From Nitrospinae bacterium RIFCSPLOWO2_12_FULL_45_22 (lineage in GTDB: Bacteria; 2-12-FULL-45-22), in contig MHDQ01000097.1 of assembly GCA_001803565.1 (NCBI GenBank), positions 1 to 8,930 on the forward strand: a stretch of 8,930 nt of DNA, written 5' to 3'. Every line of letters begins with the position of its first letter. Within the stretch, counting starts at the first letter, position 1. The translations under genes were made by a program, and so were the position numbers. Positions 634 to 8,930 of this stretch are shown in pieces. The notes beneath the pieces were generated by a model that searched no databases, was not told where the DNA came from, and worked only from the letters and a program-made list of their open reading frames with translations.

Positions 634-1734
634 ATGGAAAGCGGTAGCAGCTTTAAAGACGGTCATGGTGGGAATGTCTGGCGACTAGCCCGGGAATCCG
701 GAAACAGTTGGCAGACGGTGTTAGATTTTAGCGCTAATATTAATCCTTTAGGGTTTCCTGCCGGACTAAAAGAGACAATATTGAATTATCTCCCCACTAT
801 CACTCACTACCCCGACCCTGAATGTCAAGCCCTGAGGGAGAAATTGGCTCAGCTACACCGGATAGGGCTGGAGAATATTATTGTAGGGAACGGTTCTACT
901 GAATTACTCCATCTATTACCCAGGGCTTTAAAGCTGCAGCAGGGCCTGATAATAGAACCGGCTTTTAGCGAGTATGAAAAGGGTCTCAGGTACAACGGCA
1001 CGAGGCCCCATTTTTTAGAATTATCCGAGGCCGATGGATTTCAGTTAGACCTGGCCGAGTTTGAAGAGAAGCTCAATGGGATGGAAATAGTCTTCCTGGC
1101 TAACCCGTCTAACCCAACGGGTCAAGTATGGGAGCGGAGTGTGCTAGAAGATCTCCTGCTGTTATGCTACCATAATGGGGCTTTTCTCTTGGTAGATGAG
1201 GCATTTATAGATTTTCTGGATCAACCGGAAAGGGTCTCTTTAACCCCACTACTCAACCAATGGGATAATCTATTAGTTTTAAGGTCTTTTACCAAGTTTT
1301 ATGCTATTCCGGGCCTACGTTTAGGTTATCTGGTAGGCAACCGCAGGATTATAAGGCGCATGAGAGAGAGGCAGGAACCCTGGAGCGTTAATCTGCTTGC
1401 CCAGGTGGTAGGCCAGGAATTATTAGTAGATCAAGATGACTTTATCCAACGCTCCCGGATATTGATAAAAGAAGAGCGGGCTTTTTTAGCTGCCGAGCTG
1501 GGCCGCCTTGATAGCATCAAAATCTACCCTTCTCAGGCCAATTTCCTCCTCCTTCGCTTAACCCAGAACGACTTGAATGCAACTACTCTAGCCCAGGAGT
1601 TAGTCCAGCGCAAGCTCTTAATTAGGGACTGTAGCAATTTCAGGGGACTGAATAATTTTTATTTTCGTATTGCGGTGAGAACCAGGCCAGAAAATGAGGT
1701 ATTAATCGCTGCCCTAAAAGAAATTTTAACTTAA
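634..1734 (+). CDS. cobD: L-threonine-O-3-phosphate decarboxylase (CobD, PLP-dependent)
   Basis: 366 aa, the usual length for the family. CobD decarboxylates L-threonine O-3-phosphate to (R)-1-amino-2-propanol O-2-phosphate, the linker that CbiB attaches to cobyric acid. It has the fold of histidinol-phosphate aminotransferases (class I/II, PLP), and the family-typical CobD start HGGNVWRLARE...LDFSANINPLG (residues 11-40) separates it from HisC. Visible PLP-enzyme landmarks are NPSNPTG (157-163), DEAFIDF (188-194), the Schiff-base lysine Lys221 in SFTKFYAIPGLRLGY, and the carboxylate-binding arginine in FRIAVRT (Arg345). The reading frame has no other start codon between a TGA at 592-594 and the ATG at 634, so this start is forced, although its Shine-Dalgarno is poor (the only AAGGA lies about 24 nt upstream). 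It is the first gene of the cobalamin module. The symbol follows Salmonella usage; in Pseudomonas nomenclature cobD means CbiB. HisC activity as a side function cannot be excluded. Confidence 0.93.
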   Translation: MESGSSFKDGHGGNVWRLARESGNSWQTVLDFSANINPLGFPAGLKETILNYLPTITHYPDPECQALREKLAQLHRIGLENIIVGNGSTELLHLLPRALKLQQGLIIEPAFSEYEKGLRYNGTRPHFLELSEADGFQLDLAEFEEKLNGMEIVFLANPSNPTGQVWERSVLEDLLLLCYHNGAFLLVDEAFIDFLDQPERVSLTPLLNQWDNLLVLRSFTKFYAIPGLRLGYLVGNRRIIRRMRERQEPWSVNLLAQVVGQELLVDQDDFIQRSRILIKEERAFLAAELGRLDSIKIYPSQANFLLLRLTQNDLNATTLAQELVQRKLLIRDCSNFRGLNNFYFRIAVRTRPENEVLIAALKEILT

Positions 1735-1787
1735 TACCATTTAGGAATTCACATTCTGGATACAGATTATACTGCTTAGGGAATACA

Positions 1788-1885
1788 GGAGTCAGGATTC
1801 AGAAGTCAGTATGAACGGAACAATCAGTTTCTCTTCTGACTACTGAATTCTAGTTATCTGCGTGAATCTGCGGAAATCTGCGTCC
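1788..1885. repeat. Composite short-repeat block: inverted heptamer repeats followed by three 10-bp tandem units
   Basis: Three heptamers, GGAGTCA (1788-1794), GGATTCA (1795-1801) and GAAGTCA (1802-1808), face an inverted set at 1836-1851. The arms 1794-1809 and 1836-1851 pair at 15 of 16 positions (one G-U, one A-A mismatch) around a 26-nt loop. Directly after them lie three decamers, ATCTGCGTGA, ATCTGCGGAA and ATCTGCGTCC (1856-1885). Such heptamer and 'ATCTGCG'-type runs resemble dispersed intergenic repeats of bacterial genomes; that family assignment is from memory. The block fills most of the 171-bp cobD-cobQ spacer, and no Shine-Dalgarno remains in front of cobQ. Confidence 0.7.
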
Positions 1886-1905
1886 TAAACATAATTTAAT
1901 CGCAA

Positions 1906-3435
1906 ATGAAGCCCACAGCTAGAAGCATAATGATCCAGGGCACCGGCTCTTATGTAGGTAAGAGCATATTGGTGGCGGGCCTGTGCCGCATATTCTATCA
2001 AGCCGGGTACCGGGTAGCCCCTTTTAAGGCCCAAAATATGTCTTTAAATTCCTATGCTACCTTGGAAGGGGGTGAGATAGGCCGGGCCCAGGTGGTCCAG
2101 GCAGAGGCTGCTGGTTTAGAACCCTCTGTCCATATGAACCCTATCCTGTTAAAACCTACGGGCGATATCGGTTCTCAGGTAATAGTCCAGGGAAGACCTT
2201 TTAAGAACCTTACTGCCCAGGAATATTACCAGCATAAACAGACCCTTTTCCAGCGCGTAAAAGAATCGTATGACTACTTAGCTCAGCAGTTTGAGATAAT
2301 GGTTCTGGAAGGGGCTGGCAGCCCCGCGGAAATAAACCTAAAAGAAAATGATATTGTCAATATGGCTATGGCCCGATATGCCCAGGCACCGGTATTGTTG
2401 GTAACGGACATTGACCGGGGTGGGGCCTTCGCCGCTGTAATAGGGACCCTGGAAATATTGGATCAGGAAGAAAGGAACCTGGTAAGGGGTATAATCTTTA
2501 ATAAATTTCGGGGCGATGTCTCCCTGTTAAAACCGGGCATAGATTATCTGGAGAGCCGGACGGGTATACCCGTGTTAGGAATCATTCCCTATTTTAATAA
2601 TCTGCTTATTGACCAGGAAGATTCTGTCTGGATGGAAGAGTACACCCAGGGGAAAAAGGATAGCCAGATACCGATCGCCGTGATTCAGCTCCCCCGAATA
2701 TCCAATTTTACTGATTTCGATCCCTTGGCCCGCGAGCCCGATGTGTCCCTTTATTATGTGAGAGATTTGAGGCAACTGAAAAAACCCACTATTATTATTA
2801 TCCCCGGCAGTAAGAACACTATTGCAGACCTGTTATTTCTCAAGGAATCAGGCCTGGCAGAGGAGATCCGCAAGCAGGCCCACCAGGGCTGCTTAGTAAT
2901 AGGGATATGTGGTGGCTACCAGATGCTGGGCCAGATAGTTAGAGATGATAGTGGTGTAGAATCAGACCTGAAAGAAGTGACAGGCTTGGGTTTGCTTAAC
3001 ACCACCACAGTCCTGGAGCCAGAAAAGATCACCCATCAGGTAGGATTTCATTCTATCGTCCCAGCCCCTTATCTCCAGTCCCTAGAGCCAATGAAAGGGT
3101 ATGAAATCCATATGGGCATAACTCAAATCCTGGGCTCTGAGAAACCCCTGTTCCAGATAATCTCCCGCTCCAACCAGCCCGTAACTATATTTGATGGGGC
3201 TATTAATAATGCCCGCAATGTCTTTGGCACTTATATCCATGGTATATTTGATAATGCTGAGCTACGTACCAATCTCCTTAATCAGTTCAGGAAAGAAAAA
3301 ATAACACCACCTGGTGAGAAGGTGAAAATGGCCCAGGAGTTCAAGGAGCAACAATATAATCTTTTGGCTCAGCAATTGCTCCAGTACTTAGACTTAGAGA
3401 GGATTTACGCCTTAATTGGTCTACCCAAAATTTGA
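1906..3435 (+). CDS. cobQ: Adenosylcobyric acid synthase, glutamine-hydrolysing (CobQ/CbiP)
   Basis: 509 aa, a full-length family member. The enzyme uses ATP and glutamine to amidate the b, d, e and g side chains of adenosylcobyrinic acid a,c-diamide, giving adenosylcobyric acid. The N-terminal BioD-like ATPase domain shows SIMIQGTGSYVGKS (7-20, phosphate-binding loop), APFKAQNMSLNS (38-49), LEGAGSPAEINL (134-145) and VTDIDRGGAFA (166-176). The C-terminal class I glutamine amidotransferase domain has the nucleophile Cys335 in GICGGYQMLG (333-342) and the catalytic His445 in GTYIHGIFDN. The ATG at 1906 places the first beta-strand as in known CobQ proteins; the next ATG (1930) would cut into it. 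No Shine-Dalgarno is visible before 1906, which is odd; a repeat block lies just upstream. The last codons lie inside a 29-bp sequence that recurs 73 bp downstream, at the cbiB start. The product passes to CbiB. Confidence 0.96.
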   Translation: MKPTARSIMIQGTGSYVGKSILVAGLCRIFYQAGYRVAPFKAQNMSLNSYATLEGGEIGRAQVVQAEAAGLEPSVHMNPILLKPTGDIGSQVIVQGRPFKNLTAQEYYQHKQTLFQRVKESYDYLAQQFEIMVLEGAGSPAEINLKENDIVNMAMARYAQAPVLLVTDIDRGGAFAAVIGTLEILDQEERNLVRGIIFNKFRGDVSLLKPGIDYLESRTGIPVLGIIPYFNNLLIDQEDSVWMEEYTQGKKDSQIPIAVIQLPRISNFTDFDPLAREPDVSLYYVRDLRQLKKPTIIIIPGSKNTIADLLFLKESGLAEEIRKQAHQGCLVIGICGGYQMLGQIVRDDSGVESDLKEVTGLGLLNTTTVLEPEKITHQVGFHSIVPAPYLQSLEPMKGYEIHMGITQILGSEKPLFQIISRSNQPVTIFDGAINNARNVFGTYIHGIFDNAELRTNLLNQFRKEKITPPGEKVKMAQEFKEQQYNLLAQQLLQYLDLERIYALIGLPKI

Positions 3436-3502
3436 CCGAAATGATTGGTAGGGCAAGGCCCTGCGGCTACAAAGGATCTATACCTTAATTGATCTACCCA
3501 AA
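3401..3502 (+). repeat. Near-perfect 29-bp direct repeat spanning the cobQ end and the cbiB start
   Basis: Copy 1 (3401-3429) and copy 2 (3474-3502) are identical at 25 of 29 positions and share the core CCTTAATTGRTCTACCCAAA. Copy 1 encodes RIYALIGLPK, the tail of CobQ. Read in the same frame, copy 2 would give RIYTLIDLPK; two of the four differences are then synonymous third-base changes. The offset of 73 bp puts copy 2 out of frame with cobQ. Copy 2 provides both the TAA just before cbiB and its TTG start. The intervening 44 bp includes a GC-rich piece at 3446-3470 with a GGGC-AAG-GCCC mini-dyad. Confidence 0.85.
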
Positions 3503-4433
3503 CCTTGCGCTGACCCTGGCTTATTTATTAGACTTGATCTTAGGGGACCCCCGGGGCTGGCCCCATCCGGTAAAGATAATGGGCCGCGGGATAGGCCGTG
3601 CAGAAAAGCTATTGTGGCACGGAGGGAAAGGGGATCGGTGGTGGGGTTTGGTGTTATGGCTGTTGATTGTTTTGCCAGCTTATTTTATACCCTGGTGGTT
3701 AATTCAAATGGTCTATAATTATTCTTCCCTGGGTGCTATAATGGTGTCCATCATCCTGATCTATTGGTGTCTGTCGGTTAAGGGTCTAGCCGTAGAAGCC
3801 GGGAGAGTGAGGCAGGCCCTGGAAGGGGGTGATTTGGAAAAGGCTAAAGGATACCTGGCTTTAATCGTGGGTCGCGATCCAAAACGATTGGAGCAGGAAG
3901 AGATAATCAGGGCTACGGTGGAGACCGTGGCAGAAAATATTACTGACGGCATTATTTCCCCCCTCTTCTATGCCTTCATAGGCGGAGCACCATTGGCTAT
4001 GGCTTATAAAGCGGTAAATACTCTGGATTCTATGGTGGGTTATAAAAACGAAAAATACCGGTACTTTGGCTATTTTTCAGCAAAGGCCGATGACATCTTT
4101 AATTATATCCCTGCCAGGCTCTCAGTCTTCTTTATCTACTTAGCCTGTCTGGTATTAAGAAAAAACCCTTTATCAGCCCTAATCACCGCCATACAAGATG
4201 GTAAGAAGCACCCCAGCCCTAATGCTGGTTTACCGGAAGCTGCAGTAGCTGGGGCATTGGGCTTACGGCTAGGGGGCCCCAATTTCTATCAGGGGATACT
4301 GGTAGAAAAGCCCTACCTGGGCCGGCACAATAATACCCCTACGGTCAATAATATTCGAGAAGTAATCAAAATAATGCATACTGCGGCACTGCTGGCTGTA
4401 ATAGCTGCCTGTTTGATTAATCTTTGGTTATGA
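3489..4433 (+). CDS. cbiB: Adenosylcobinamide-phosphate synthase, integral membrane protein (CbiB)
   Basis: 314 aa, the normal size. CbiB condenses adenosylcobyric acid with (R)-1-amino-2-propanol O-2-phosphate (the CobD product) to adenosylcobinamide phosphate at the cytoplasmic membrane. Family signatures are GDPRGWPHPVKIMG (19-32), LIVGRDPKRL (125-134), ETVAENITDGIISPLFY (145-161), YKAVNTLDSMVGYKNEKY (173-190), ADDIFNYIPARL (200-211) and KHPSPNAGLPEAAVAGALG (240-258). Hydrophobic stretches at about 50-72, 80-97, 155-172, 211-226 and 296-314 fit several membrane helices. The start is TTG at 3489: a TAA sits immediately upstream in frame, and the first ATG (3579) would delete the conserved GDP..HP motif. 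AAAGGA at 3471-3476 is the likely Shine-Dalgarno, with a rather long spacing of 12 nt. The stop overlaps the ATG of the following DUF4258 remnant (ATGA at 4430-4433). In Pseudomonas nomenclature this gene is called cobD. Confidence 0.94.
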   Translation: MIYPNLALTLAYLLDLILGDPRGWPHPVKIMGRGIGRAEKLLWHGGKGDRWWGLVLWLLIVLPAYFIPWWLIQMVYNYSSLGAIMVSIILIYWCLSVKGLAVEAGRVRQALEGGDLEKAKGYLALIVGRDPKRLEQEEIIRATVETVAENITDGIISPLFYAFIGGAPLAMAYKAVNTLDSMVGYKNEKYRYFGYFSAKADDIFNYIPARLSVFFIYLACLVLRKNPLSALITAIQDGKKHPSPNAGLPEAAVAGALGLRLGGPNFYQGILVEKPYLGRHNNTPTVNNIREVIKIMHTAALLAVIAACLINLWL

Positions 4434-4930: not shown

Positions 4931-4956
4931 CATTAACTAAAGAAGGAGGGGTGGCC

Positions 4957-7005
4957 ATGAGATTCCAGAAGCTATTTGAGCCTGGCAAGATTGGTACCAT
5001 GGAAGTAAAAAACCGTATATTGCTCCCAGCTCTAGGACTAAATTTCTGTACGGATAAGACGGTAAATGAGCGCTGGCTGAACTTTTATGAAGAACGTGCC
5101 CGGGGTGGTGTTGGGTTGATGATTGTCTCAGCGGGTATTGAATACACTGGCGAAAAGGGCTACGAGCTGCTGAATACGAGCGATAAGATGGGTTATATCC
5201 CCAGCCTGGGCCATGATAAGTATCTACCAGGCTGGCAAAAGCTGGTAGACGCTTCGCATAAACACGGGGCCAAGATAGGCGTTCAGATCGCTCACCTGGG
5301 CAAGTATGCCCACTCCAGCGTGTTGGGTGGTGAGCAACCAGTCTCTCCTTCAGCTATCCAGGCCAATATGACCGTGTGCGGCTTAGCCGGTGAGATGCCC
5401 CGGGAGCTTACTATTCCAGAAATGAAACTCATCCAGCGAAACATTGCCAATACGGTTAAACGGGCCAGGGAGGCCGGTATAGATATAGTCGAGCTAAATG
5501 TTTGCTCGGGCTATCTCATGCGGGAATTCCTTTCTCCTATCACCAATAAGCGGACAGATGAGTATGGTGGCAGCGTAGAGAACCGGATGCGCTTCCTCTT
5601 GGAACTCATTAGCAAGATCCAGGAGACCGTGGGAAAAGGTTATCCCCTGATGGTCAGGCTCTCGGCCAATGAGTTTCTACCTGGGGGCCATACCCTTAAT
5701 GAGACTACCATAGTGGCTCAGGCATTAGAAAAAGCTGGACTCCATGCCATTAGTGTGGTAGGTGGCGGTCATGAGACCATGGTTCCTTTATCGCCTATGG
5801 CAGTCCCCCGGGGCGCCTTCGTTTATCTGGCTCAGGGGATCAAGAATGTAGTGAGTATCCCGGTTGTTGCCTCAGCCCGGATCAATAACCCCATAATGGC
5901 TGATAATATCTTGCGGGACGGCCAGGCTGATTTTGTGGCTATTGCCCGCTCGATCATGGCGGACCCGGACTTTCCTAACAAGGCCAGAGATGGGAGGCTG
6001 GATGAGATCCGCCCTTGCATCGCCTGCAACCAGGGCTGCTTTGACTTAGTCTTCGAATGGGTACCAGTAACTTGTATGATGAACCCCCGGGTAGGCTGGG
6101 AGAAAGAACGTCAAGTAACTCCGGCCAGTAAAAAGAAAAAAGTTATGGTGATCGGGGGTGGACCGGCCGGTATGGAGACTGCCCAGGTGTTGGCCCTGCG
6201 AGGACATACGGTATCATTATACGAAAAAGGAGATCGGCTAGGGGGTCAGGTTAATCTCTCTGCTGTACCGCCTGGCAGGGAAGAGTTTGCTAATATACCG
6301 GTATATTTCGGTCATCAACTAAACAAACTGGGAGTTAAGGTAAACCTGGGCCGGGAAGTTAATGCTGAGCTGATTAACCAGGAAAAACCCGATGCCGTTG
6401 TAGTGGCTACGGGTGCTGCACCATTAGTCCCTGATATCCCCGGTATAAAAAGGGATAATGTTATTACTGCCTGGGATGCCTTACAGGATAAAGAGCCGAT
6501 TGGTAGGCGGGTAGTGGTGCTGGGTGGTGGTTCTGTGGGTTGTGAAACCGCCATATATCTGGCTAAGAAAGGCGCTATAGATGCTGAAACCTTTATCTTT
6601 TTAACCTCTTATGCCGCCTGTGATCCACAAACGGCCTTTGGTTTGACCATGAAGGGAAATAAGGATGTTACTATTATAGAGATGCTGCCCCGGATCGGTC
6701 AGGATTTCGGCAAAGGGAACCGGTGGGTATTTGTGGGTGATATAAAGCGGCTGGGTATCAAGGTTATAACTAAGGCTGAAGTCACAGCAATAACCGACGA
6801 AGGGGTAAAGATAAAGGTGGGTGAGCAGGAACAAGTCATCCCTGCCGATACGGTAGTATTAGCCGTGGGCTCTCAACCAAATAACCGCCTCTATGAGAAG
6901 ATAAAAGATAAGGTAGCGGAGGTTCATCTGATCGGTGATGCCCAGAAGCCCCGAAAGACCCTGGATGCTATCCATGAAGGGTTTGAGGTGGCCTGCCGTA
7001 TCTAG
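4957..7005 (+). CDS. Fe-S/FMN/FAD enoate reductase-like oxidoreductase (2,4-dienoyl-CoA reductase / old yellow enzyme family)
   Basis: 682 aa. The start is ATG 4957: the Shine-Dalgarno AAGGAGG (4943-4949) is 7 nt away, whereas the GTG at 4951 is too close. The N-terminal part (1-350) is an FMN TIM barrel of the old yellow enzyme type: LFEPGKIGTMEVKNRILLPAL, GVQIAHLGKYA (108-118), GYLMREFLSPITNKRTDEYGGS (185-206). Tyr186 and His272 (GGGHE) align with Tyr166 and His252, the proton donors of E. coli FadH. Cys354, 357, 361 and 373 (C-x2-C-x3-C-x11-C) should hold a 4Fe-4S cluster. A FAD loop VIGGGPAGMETA (398-409) and an NAD(P)-loop VVLGGGSVGCETA (519-531) follow. Electrons would run NAD(P)H-FAD-FeS-FMN to a C=C bond; the substrate (enoate, dienoyl-CoA, other) is not determined. 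About 28 residues (539-567) are inserted after the NAD(P) loop compared with FadH. No signal peptide; cytoplasmic. Convergent with the LysR gene. Confidence 0.92.
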   Translation: MRFQKLFEPGKIGTMEVKNRILLPALGLNFCTDKTVNERWLNFYEERARGGVGLMIVSAGIEYTGEKGYELLNTSDKMGYIPSLGHDKYLPGWQKLVDASHKHGAKIGVQIAHLGKYAHSSVLGGEQPVSPSAIQANMTVCGLAGEMPRELTIPEMKLIQRNIANTVKRAREAGIDIVELNVCSGYLMREFLSPITNKRTDEYGGSVENRMRFLLELISKIQETVGKGYPLMVRLSANEFLPGGHTLNETTIVAQALEKAGLHAISVVGGGHETMVPLSPMAVPRGAFVYLAQGIKNVVSIPVVASARINNPIMADNILRDGQADFVAIARSIMADPDFPNKARDGRLDEIRPCIACNQGCFDLVFEWVPVTCMMNPRVGWEKERQVTPASKKKKVMVIGGGPAGMETAQVLALRGHTVSLYEKGDRLGGQVNLSAVPPGREEFANIPVYFGHQLNKLGVKVNLGREVNAELINQEKPDAVVVATGAAPLVPDIPGIKRDNVITAWDALQDKEPIGRRVVVLGGGSVGCETAIYLAKKGAIDAETFIFLTSYAACDPQTAFGLTMKGNKDVTIIEMLPRIGQDFGKGNRWVFVGDIKRLGIKVITKAEVTAITDEGVKIKVGEQEQVIPADTVVLAVGSQPNNRLYEKIKDKVAEVHLIGDAQKPRKTLDAIHEGFEVACRI

Positions 7006-7007
7006 AC

Positions 7008-7901
7008 TTAAAAATTATCGGCCATACTCCTGGCTACTTCCAGGAATGTCAGAGCTGCTTTACATAATCGTTTATCTTTGTGAGAGACAATAGATAGAGG
7101 ACGTTGAAAGGAGATATCTTTCACCTTTACTATAACCAGGCGCTGATCAGCGATTTCATTTAAGACCGAATATATGGAGACAAAGGATAGCCCTAGCCCG
7201 GCTGCTACAGCCTGCTTGACTGCTTCTGGGCTGCCTAGCTCCATAGCTATTTTAATTTTAAAGCCCTGTTTCTCTAGGGCTCTCTGAATCACCTCGCGGG
7301 TAGCAGACCCCTTTTCCCGCAGGATAAAGCTCTGGCCTTCTAGTTCTTTTAAACTAGTAGCCTTCCCCTTTATTTGCCGAGGGCCTTTTCTGGCTGAGAT
7401 CAATACCAGCTTATCCATTAGATAAGGCTCGCTCTTGATCTCATCTGCGATTATCTGCCCACCGATAAAACCCAGCTCGAGCTCATTGCGTAAAATCCTA
7501 TTCTGGATTTCTCTGCTGTTAGCTATTTCTAGGGCAACATCTATTTGGGGATAGCGGGCTTTAAATTCTCCTAAAATCCTGGGTAACAGATAGGTACCCG
7601 GGGTAGTGCTGGCACCAATATGGATAGCACCCCGCTCTAATCCTTTTAACTCATCAAGGGCTTGCTGGGATTCATCTATCAGGGCAAATATCTTTCGGGC
7701 ATATTGTTCCAGGAGCTGCCCGGCCTCGGTAAGGAAGATCCGTTTACCCATCTGTTCTACTAGTTTGCAGCCTAAAGTCCCTTCCAGTTGATGCAATTGT
7801 ACTGAGACAGAAGACTGGCTCAGATGGAGCTCTTGGGCCGCCCGAGTAAAGCTCCTTAGCCGGGCAAGAGTAAAGAATATCTTAAGCTGGTGCAAAGTCA
7901 T
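7008..7901 (-). CDS. LysR-family transcriptional regulator
   Basis: 297 aa, standard length. Residues 1-60 form the winged helix-turn-helix: MTLHQLKIFFTLARLRSFTRAAQELHLSQSSVSVQLHQLE, with the recognition helix around 29-39, and the wing LVEQMGKRIFLTEAG (47-61). A linker helix (about 62-88) leads to the type 2 periplasmic-binding-like effector domain, which opens with GAIHIGASTTPGTYLLPRIL (91-110); LILISA-type and AAGLGLSFVS segments are conserved positions of this domain. Overall it resembles the CysL/CbbR side of the family, but ligand and targets cannot be read from sequence. The ATG at 7901 (minus) has GAGG 5 nt upstream. The stop lies 2 bp from the stop of the convergent reductase. LysR regulators usually sit divergent from their targets; here the divergent neighbour is padR, so either the padR operon or the reductase might be a target. 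Confidence 0.94.
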   Translation of the reverse strand: MTLHQLKIFFTLARLRSFTRAAQELHLSQSSVSVQLHQLEGTLGCKLVEQMGKRIFLTEAGQLLEQYARKIFALIDESQQALDELKGLERGAIHIGASTTPGTYLLPRILGEFKARYPQIDVALEIANSREIQNRILRNELELGFIGGQIIADEIKSEPYLMDKLVLISARKGPRQIKGKATSLKELEGQSFILREKGSATREVIQRALEKQGFKIKIAMELGSPEAVKQAVAAGLGLSFVSIYSVLNEIADQRLVIVKVKDISFQRPLSIVSHKDKRLCKAALTFLEVARSMADNF

Positions 7902-8010: not shown

Positions 8011-8092
8011 AAGAAAAAATCCTGGCATGGAAAGAGAGCCAGAAAAAGATAACCCTGGCCCTGTGGTCTAAGAACCTCTTTCCCATGCCAGG
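8011..8092 (-). terminator. Long-stem hairpin with U-tract on the minus strand (terminator or attenuator-like)
   Basis: CCTGGCATGGAAAGAG (8021-8036) pairs with CTCTTTCCCATGCCAGG (8076-8092): 16 base pairs with one bulged base, around a 39-nt loop. The loop contains a second small stem, GCCAG (8038-8042) with CTGGC (8055-8059). On the minus strand the stem is followed by ATTTTTTCTT (8020-8011), which is terminator-like; on the plus strand no U-run follows. As a minus-strand terminator it would lie upstream of the LysR gene, blocking antisense transcription from the padR side or acting in a long lysR leader. The large loop is unusual for a plain intrinsic terminator. Confidence 0.55.
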
Positions 8093-8104
8093 AGCAAATA
8101 TCAA

Positions 8105-8169
8105 ATATCGTTGACATAAATAATCTTCACAGGTATTATATTATCGGTTACGGATAACGAATATCGATA
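8105..8169. promoter_or_regulatory. Operator-like repeats around the padR promoter
   Basis: The word TATCG occurs three times: 8106-8110 (just before the -35), 8142-8146 (at the expected start site) and 8162-8166 (inside the palindrome TATCGATA, 8162-8169). A dyad TTATC-N7-GATAA covers 8141-8157. PadR repressors usually autoregulate through dyads overlapping their own promoter, so these are candidate PadR sites. They do not match the ATGT-N8-ACAT site of classical PadR. Confidence 0.45.
8111..8139 (+). promoter_or_regulatory. Near-consensus housekeeping-sigma promoter of the padR operon
   Basis: TTGACA (8111-8116), a 17-nt spacer and TATTAT (8134-8139, 5 of 6). The expected start is near 8146, with a leader of about 41 nt holding the AAGGAG Shine-Dalgarno (8172-8177). 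It is the best promoter match in the window, consistent with a strong promoter kept off by a repressor. Confidence 0.75.
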
Positions 8170-8186
8170 GCAAGGAGATGGCTATT

Positions 8187-8495
8187 ATGAAGGATAAAGA
8201 CCTCTATTCTGGGTTCATACGACTCCATATCCTTTATCATGCCTCTAAGGGGACAATTTTTGGTTTGGGTTTGATAGAGGAATTGGGACGACACGGTTAT
8301 AGGATCAGCCCGGGAACTCTTTACCCCATCCTTCACAGCCTGGAAAATAGAGGTTATCTTCGATCTGCAGGGGAACAAATTGGGGGGCGAATCAGGCGAG
8401 TTTATAAGATAACATATGAGGGCCGCCGGGCGTTAAATGCGGCTAAGGATAAGGTTAGAGAACTCTTTGGTGAGCTTTTTGAAGATGGGTCATGA
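8187..8495 (+). CDS. PadR-family transcriptional regulator
   Basis: 102 aa from the ATG at 8187. An ATG at 8178 is in frame but directly abuts the Shine-Dalgarno AAGGAG (8172-8177), so 8187, with 9-nt spacing, is the better start. The sequence is a compact PadR winged helix-turn-helix: LHILYHASKGTIFGLGLIEEL (13-33), the recognition helix SPGTLYPILHSLENRGYL (41-58, with the hallmark SPGTLYP), and the wing GGRIRRVYKITYEGRRAL (66-83). A short C-terminal helix (about 84-98) would form the dimer interface, as in the short, subfamily 1-type PadR proteins. PadR proteins are mostly ligand-released repressors of the adjacent gene set. The stop overlaps the next ATG (ATGA, 8492-8495), implying translational coupling with the CxxC protein and joint control of the transporter. 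Confidence 0.93.
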   Translation: MKDKDLYSGFIRLHILYHASKGTIFGLGLIEELGRHGYRISPGTLYPILHSLENRGYLRSAGEQIGGRIRRVYKITYEGRRALNAAKDKVRELFGELFEDGS

Positions 8496-8863
8496 GGGAT
8501 AAACTTATCAGTCAGGATGTCCAAGCTTATGGGGTATGTAATACGTGTACTATTATGCTAGTACGATTGGCCTATGAGAGGGCCTGGTGGTTCCGCCTGA
8601 TCCGAGAACCCTTGCGCCTGGGAATGATATTGTTAGGGTGGTTGCACCGGATTAATCCCAAGGATTATCAGGTACGGACATTGGATTGTCATGGATGTAT
8701 CCGCTTTACCAAGACTGCTCTGAAGGAAAAGTCGGATTTATTTTGCTGGCTGAATGATCGCGTGAATCCAGTCTTTAACCTAATCCTGGAGACCCTGGTG
8801 ACCCAAGAAGAAATTCAGGAGGCAAAGCGTTATGCCCGGGAGGCTACACATGCAAGGAAATAA
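8492..8863 (+). CDS. Conserved-looking protein of unknown function with two CxxC pairs
   Basis: 123 aa, start ATG overlapping the padR stop. I do not recognise a named family. The protein has Cys16-x2-Cys19 (YGVCNTCT), Cys66-x2-Cys69 (DCHGCIRF) and a single Cys85. Two separated CxxC pairs could form one tetracysteine site for zinc or an Fe-S cluster, or two redox-active pairs. Between them, residues 24-50 are rich in Trp, Arg and Leu (RLAYERAWWFRLIREPLRLGMILLGWLHRI), possibly an amphipathic or membrane-peripheral helix. The C-terminal third (98-120) looks helical and charged. No signal peptide. Its place between a PadR repressor and a TauE/SafE-like transporter, with tight spacing on both sides, suggests a partner role in moving or handling a sulfur compound, organic acid or metal; that is inference only. 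Confidence 0.85.
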   Translation: MRDKLISQDVQAYGVCNTCTIMLVRLAYERAWWFRLIREPLRLGMILLGWLHRINPKDYQVRTLDCHGCIRFTKTALKEKSDLFCWLNDRVNPVFNLILETLVTQEEIQEAKRYAREATHARK

Positions 8864-8866
8864 ATA

Positions 8867-8930
8867 ATGGAATATTTTATAGTCTGTTTGGCAGCGTTAA
8901 TAGTTGCAGGGCTTACCCTTTTTTCTGGGT
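8867..8930 (+). CDS. TauE/SafE-type membrane transporter, N-terminus only (partial, cut by right edge)
   Basis: ATG at 8867, preceded by AAGGA (8854-8858) at 8-nt spacing and only 3 bp after the previous stop. The 21 visible codons read MEYFIVCLAALIVAGLTLFSG, a hydrophobic first membrane helix ending in the LTLFSG(F) motif that opens many TauE/SafE (TSUP) family permeases. Such proteins have 7-8 helices and are proposed to export sulfite, sulfoacetate or other small organic anions; the substrate cannot be told from this fragment. Too short for the ORF list but well supported by its ribosome binding site, operon position and motif. Confidence 0.65.
   Translation, partial: MEYFIVCLAALIVAGLTLFSG

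Follow-up and report, generated by a model that had tools for sequence, protein, structure and literature searches.

Chromate induces an operon of Bacillus cereus SJ1 in which the PadR-family gene chrI is transcribed together with chrA1 (PMC2936356). This pair resembles the operon analyzed here in that a PadR-family gene lies directly 5' of an anion transporter gene, although the transporter is the chromate transporter ChrA and no counterpart of the middle protein of our operon (hereafter MID) is reported. Another close relative is found in class 1 integrons, whose chrA-padR module is exemplified by Escherichia coli pGN4554-5 (NZ_CP102699); the integron record examined represents the chrA-padR-IS6100 end. 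The PadR of this module is about 64% identical to the one in our operon, and its gene lies immediately next to, and in the same orientation as, a gene for an anion transporter, but the transporter is ChrA instead of a TSUP (TauE/SafE) family protein, padR is the last gene instead of the first, and MID is missing. In plasmids of Pseudomonas putida, Citrobacter, Comamonas and Agrobacterium, PadR and ChrA adjoin a divergent TSUP gene. These modules share with our operon the PadR, the TSUP and an operator, located there between the genes, but differ in the presence of ChrA, in the separate, divergently oriented TSUP unit and in the lack of MID. PadR-ChrA and PadR-ChrA-TSUP groupings are already present in annotated records; a connection of the operon to such modules is not made in the earlier note, and no paper naming the operator of the chrA-linked plasmid PadR was found in the literature searched. 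Finally, the YeeE-YeeD (TsuA-TsuB) thiosulfate uptake system combines a membrane transporter with a small cytosolic cysteine protein, but the likeness is one of analogy only: no match of MID to a TusA-like (YeeD) family was obtained, and our operon encodes a TSUP as its transporter.

The window, i.e., the whole stretch of DNA analyzed, comprises one entire contig (8930 bases). The draft genome to which it belongs totals 3.67 Mb in 321 contigs, is 85% complete and comes from a class that is represented by only two genomes in the collection used. The operon is located at the right end of the contig and, because the contig stops at 8930, only 21 codons of the third gene are present and any further genes would lie beyond its end. 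The three genes, all on the plus strand, encode a PadR-family repressor of 102 amino acids (8187-8495), the 123-residue MID (8492-8863) and the beginning of the TSUP transporter (8867-8929; MEYFIVCLAALIVAGLTLFSG). The tight packing described in the earlier note is borne out: MID starts at 8492, that is, overlaps the end of padR by 4 nt, and ends at 8863, leaving a 3-bp gap before the next ATG at 8867. The padR start at 8187 was preferred over the mechanical ORF start at 8178 because the ribosome-binding site AAGGAG, read directly at 8172-8177, abuts 8178 and is well spaced from 8187; the homologs of this PadR also start at the position equivalent to 8187.

The product of the first gene belongs to the PadR winged-helix domain family (PF03551; E = 3.9e-16, 59.2 bits with a cut-off of 27), which backs the proposal of a small PadR-repressed operon. 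The closest solved structure is that of Rv3488 from Mycobacterium tuberculosis (PDB 5ZHC; E = 1.4e-22 over 90 residues), but the score against the Rv3488 equivalog family NF053635 (99.3 bits) is below the 140-bit cut-off, so that the window protein is not a member. The best plasmid matches, at about 64-68% identity, are PadR proteins that adjoin chrA; PadR proteins at 60-80% identity are encoded on 1,803 plasmid records, mostly enterobacterial. Judged by identity, the window PadR belongs to the ChrA-linked clade, but the transporter position next to it is occupied by TSUP instead of ChrA.

TSUP is a large family, and what its members transport is poorly known. The assignment of the truncated third gene to this family holds, both for the 21 residues that match TSUP N-termini and for the complete neighbors in homologous loci, which match PF01925. 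Of eleven TSUP ORFs compared, nine share 9-17 identities with the 21-residue start, including 17 for the TSUP of the PadR-MID-TSUP cluster L068, 15 for that of L038 and 14 for that of L039, and two divergent copies share 5 and 6; the maximum among 609 unrelated ORFs was 9. The rest of the gene was not found elsewhere in its own 85%-complete genome in a search that lacked a positive control.

MID was described in the earlier note as a protein without an assignable family that contains two CxxC pairs, and both parts of this description are correct. The cysteines are C16 and C19, and C66 and C69. Comparison with Pfam and NCBIfam yielded nothing above the cut-offs, the best chance matches having E values of 0.0092-0.9 to unrelated families. 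DUF5071, DUF1175, FdhE_C and lachnocin were discarded as relatives, being sub-cut-off matches that are not common to the members. Two homologs with 45-47% identity were detected among 386 diverse genomes, and the resulting three-sequence profile recovered 12 loci in Chloroflexota, Anaerolineae, Spirochaetes, Elusimicrobia, UBP15 and Acidobacteria metagenome-assembled genomes. Profile searches in the respective taxa were positive in 5 of the 396 genomes of the class that includes locus L013, 9 of 294 in the class of L015, 4 of 198 in the phylum of L016, 3 of 228 in the phylum of L012, and 4 of the 7 UBP15 genomes. Scans with the single sequence, among them a tblastn search of 72,556 plasmids, produced no match in genome contigs, viral contigs, phages or plasmids. 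A match with 26% identity in one genome (G008) was rejected on account of internal stop codons and because the family profile failed to retrieve it. The 23 aligned intact members, from several phyla, retain all four cysteines without exception, an outcome that the earlier note had named as support; the other invariant positions are Y28, R30, F34, R38, P40, L41, R71, K74, S81, F84, P93 and F95. These comparisons indicate that MID is a real family, rare and patchy and yet present in multiple phyla. The AlphaFold model of MID is all-helical (pLDDT 82.8), with helices at 20-30, 34-51, 70-80, 82-102 and 105-119. A search of solved structures in the PDB with this model retrieved no convincing fold (Foldseek best E = 5.8; VIA Z 2.6), which is not proof of a new fold.

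To classify the neighbors of MID, phmmer was run with a set of reference proteins, the family assignments of which were verified against Pfam (TauE, Chromate_transp, DsrE and Na_Ca_ex). The recurrent linkage to TSUP that the earlier note had named as support was recovered, with TSUP adjoining MID in several homologous loci, but TSUP is not the sole partner: in about seven loci the corresponding position is occupied by ChrA, and one locus (L059) has a Na/Ca-exchanger-like protein there, together with PadR. The PadR-MID-TSUP order of the window is found in L015, L062 and L068, and in L015, from Chloroflexota, the 4-nt overlap is identical as well. Other arrangements are PadR-MID-ChrA (L058, L064), MID-ChrA (L011, L057, L069, and L012 with a methyltransferase in between), PadR-TSUP-MID (L014, L060), TSUP-MID (L039, L063) and larger clusters around MID (L016, L066). 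Within 2.5 kb of MID (116 kb in total), there are 17 PadR, 10 TSUP and 8 ChrA ORFs; the remaining 141 kb of the same loci, used as an internal control, contain 2, 1 and 1, respectively. Most of the non-UBP15 loci thus combine MID with both PadR and a transporter, unlike those of UBP15, where MID follows tsaD and overlaps its end by 4 nt (L008, L017, L019, L040). In these copies, all four cysteines are retained with no PadR, transporter or operator nearby, which indicates that MID can function outside the module. None of the outcomes that would have refuted the earlier note, namely homologs without the cysteines, an absence of conserved linkage to the transporter or a third gene other than TSUP, was encountered. 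One additional locus (L065, 5592-5918) carries a deletion, immediately 3' of padR, that leaves the first ~30 TSUP residues fused in frame with the C-terminal half of MID; this is a broken copy that retains an ancestral PadR-TSUP-MID order. In L010 (2541-3323, minus strand), an ORF with a very Cys/His-rich, metallothionein-like tail is encoded beside a weak PadR/ArsR-like match.

The single strong promoter ahead of padR is readily identifiable as a sigma-70-type TTGACA-17-TATTAT sequence (8111-8139, plus strand) with 11 of the 12 consensus positions matched. The operator-like repeats that were noted on its flanks (8098-8110 and 8154-8166) exist, but the meaningful repeat is a tandem palindrome at 8142-8169. 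The flanking pair was dropped as the operator, given that the palindrome in its 13-bp register better explains the conserved part. The palindrome shared by the homologous loci is TATCG-N5-CGATA, mostly in two copies that together form a 28-bp site, TATCG-N5-CGATAWCG-N5-CGATA. The window copy, TATCGGTTACGGATAACGAATATCGATA, on the plus strand, matches 17 of the 18 defined positions of TATCG-N5-CGATAACG-N5-CGATA and begins 2 bp 3' of the -10 box. With a threshold of at least 14/18 for calling an operator in a locus, a candidate site is present upstream of the operon in 18 of the 25 MID loci. Across 266 kb, 30 positions score at least 14/18, some of which are two registers or offsets of one site, compared to 0.8 in first-order Markov shuffles; at 15/18 or higher, the counts are 19 and 0. 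Controls with other spacers or scrambled half-sites gave 2-15 single sites, compared to 39 for the actual motif.

In most of the homologous loci, a TTGACA-TATAAT-like promoter is followed at once by the operator, a position in which a repressor site would be expected. The site also precedes MID (L012, L016, L057, L069) or TSUP (L038, L039, L063) where PadR is encoded elsewhere, and thus marks a regulon rather than padR alone. Because the motif was first seen and then counted in the same MID loci, the five chrA-padR plasmid loci serve as an independent test: all five contain the tandem operator, with 14-17 of the 18 positions matched. In the class 1 integron (L076), the site is located upstream of chrA (16/18), and in L074, L075, L078 and L079 it is found between or before the ChrA and TSUP genes; a plasmid locus with TSUP that encodes neither PadR nor ChrA (L077) has no operator. 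By position and conservation, we infer that the tandem palindrome is the candidate PadR operator. Additional operator-like sites away from the MID operon (L015, 12119; L039, 7514; L065, 2553) might belong to further members of the regulon. No earlier description of the MID family, the alternation of TSUP and ChrA, or the shared tandem operator was found in the literature and databases searched.

Taken together, the gene order, the conservation of the MID family with its invariant cysteines, the predicted operator and the interchange of TSUP and ChrA, all evident from comparison of the loci, make it reasonably probable that the window contains an autoregulated oxyanion-stress operon of the PadR/ChrA kind, with TSUP in the place of ChrA or alongside it and with MID as an accessory protein in the cytosol that carries four cysteines. 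The regulatory part of this interpretation, for which the comparative evidence is strong, is very likely to be correct. PadR encoded by the first gene would bind the tandem palindrome that appears to span the transcription start by the -10 box, and would thus shut off its own operon until released by a small inducer, most likely chromate, another toxic oxyanion or an oxidized sulfur species. By analogy with chrI, the inducer could be chromate; the DsrE-family neighbors of MID in some loci equally suggest sulfur species, and these neighbors, along with the methyltransferase, appear compatible with sulfur chemistry as much as with chromate. Derepression would yield TSUP along with MID, a predicted soluble helical protein. 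TSUP would presumably move the offending anion, or an accompanying sulfur anion, across the membrane. The two CxxC pairs of MID, each just ahead of a helix in the model, probably come together in one site of four cysteines that binds Zn or an Fe-S cluster, or else act as a thiol relay; either way, they would handle the substrate of the transporter or the damage caused by this substrate. Considering the four invariant cysteines, the helical model and the gene neighbors, the candidate chemistries are binding of a metal or an Fe-S cluster, sulfur relay and a thiol partnership. The redox or metal-binding partner and the efflux or sensing unit proposed in the earlier note would likewise be conjectural. 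Two observations speak against the operon interpretation, namely, the UBP15 copies of MID outside such a module and the proteobacterial plasmid PadR/ChrA modules that manage without MID. A broader proposal can be put forward only tentatively, namely, that MID is a new four-cysteine family serving as the dedicated cytosolic partner of the unrelated TSUP and ChrA transporters, in a substrate-reducing, sulfur-handling or cluster-based gating role, within one PadR regulon that extends from hospital integrons to anaerobic, deep-branching phyla.

The role of MID could be different. It might be a persulfide carrier that, in conjunction with TSUP and DsrE, relays sulfane or thiosulfate-derived sulfur, as YeeD does for YeeE. 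DsrE-family genes are located directly 3' of MID in L013 and L014 and inside the L016 cluster, and a MID remnant in L041 (5713-5844) runs into DsrE-like sequence, in a genome that also has the intact L013 copy; like L065, this is a broken copy in which the former gene order can still be read. A precedent is YeeD, reported to be essential as a partner protein to the thiosulfate transporter YeeE (PMC11073785). However, in sequence MID matches neither TusA/YeeD nor any family of sulfurtransferases, and it contains two paired CxxC motifs as opposed to a single reactive cysteine, and ChrA accounts for nearly half of its partner transporters, so that a sulfur relay appears rather unlikely. The strict conservation of all four cysteines is also what would be expected if they held a purely structural zinc, with MID as a transporter subunit that serves for scaffolding or membrane docking and is devoid of redox or sulfur chemistry. 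Such a role would be consistent with the AlphaFold model, in which both CxxC knuckles sit immediately ahead of a helix, and with the conserved Trp/Arg/REPL segment and the hydrophobicity of helix 34-51, a possible docking surface for a membrane protein; nevertheless, MID occurs in UBP15 without any transporter, and we consider this alternative doubtful. Finally, a split sensor-repressor, in which the four cysteines of MID perceive a redox or metal signal and act on PadR, with the transporter as a mere output, might be suspected from the complete lack of cysteines in the window PadR and from the loci where MID lies beside PadR and the surrounding 2.5 kb contain neither TSUP nor ChrA (L013, L038, L059), but is improbable, given that MID and the transporter are equally often directly joined in loci that lack PadR or encode it at a distance (L011, L039, L063, L069) and that the plasmid chrA-padR modules combine the same operator and PadR without MID, which implies that PadR is independent of MID.

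The preferred interpretation, an autoregulated oxyanion-stress operon with MID as an accessory, ties TSUP to chromate-type oxyanion stress and singles out MID, with its four conserved cysteines, as the missing partner on which tests can focus. The 28-bp candidate site that is common to class 1 integrons and anaerobic bacteria provides a route to finding the regulon and its inducer and, because the chromate-resistance genes of many hospital plasmids carry this predicted control site too, makes the role of MID testable.

The remainder of the window contains several recognizable genes. At 634-4433, there is a cobalamin-related cluster that encodes a class I/II aminotransferase, CobC/CobD-like by position, a cobyric acid synthase-like amidotransferase and CbiB/CobD. 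Downstream, a gene for an Old-yellow-enzyme family flavin oxidoreductase (4951-7005, plus strand) faces that of a LysR regulator (7008-7901, minus strand) at a distance of 2 bp. The stretch that separates the LysR gene from the padR promoter contains a 14-nt inverted repeat, TCCTGGCATGGAAA (8020-8033) and TTCCCATGCCAGGA (8080-8093), with the two arms 46 nt apart.
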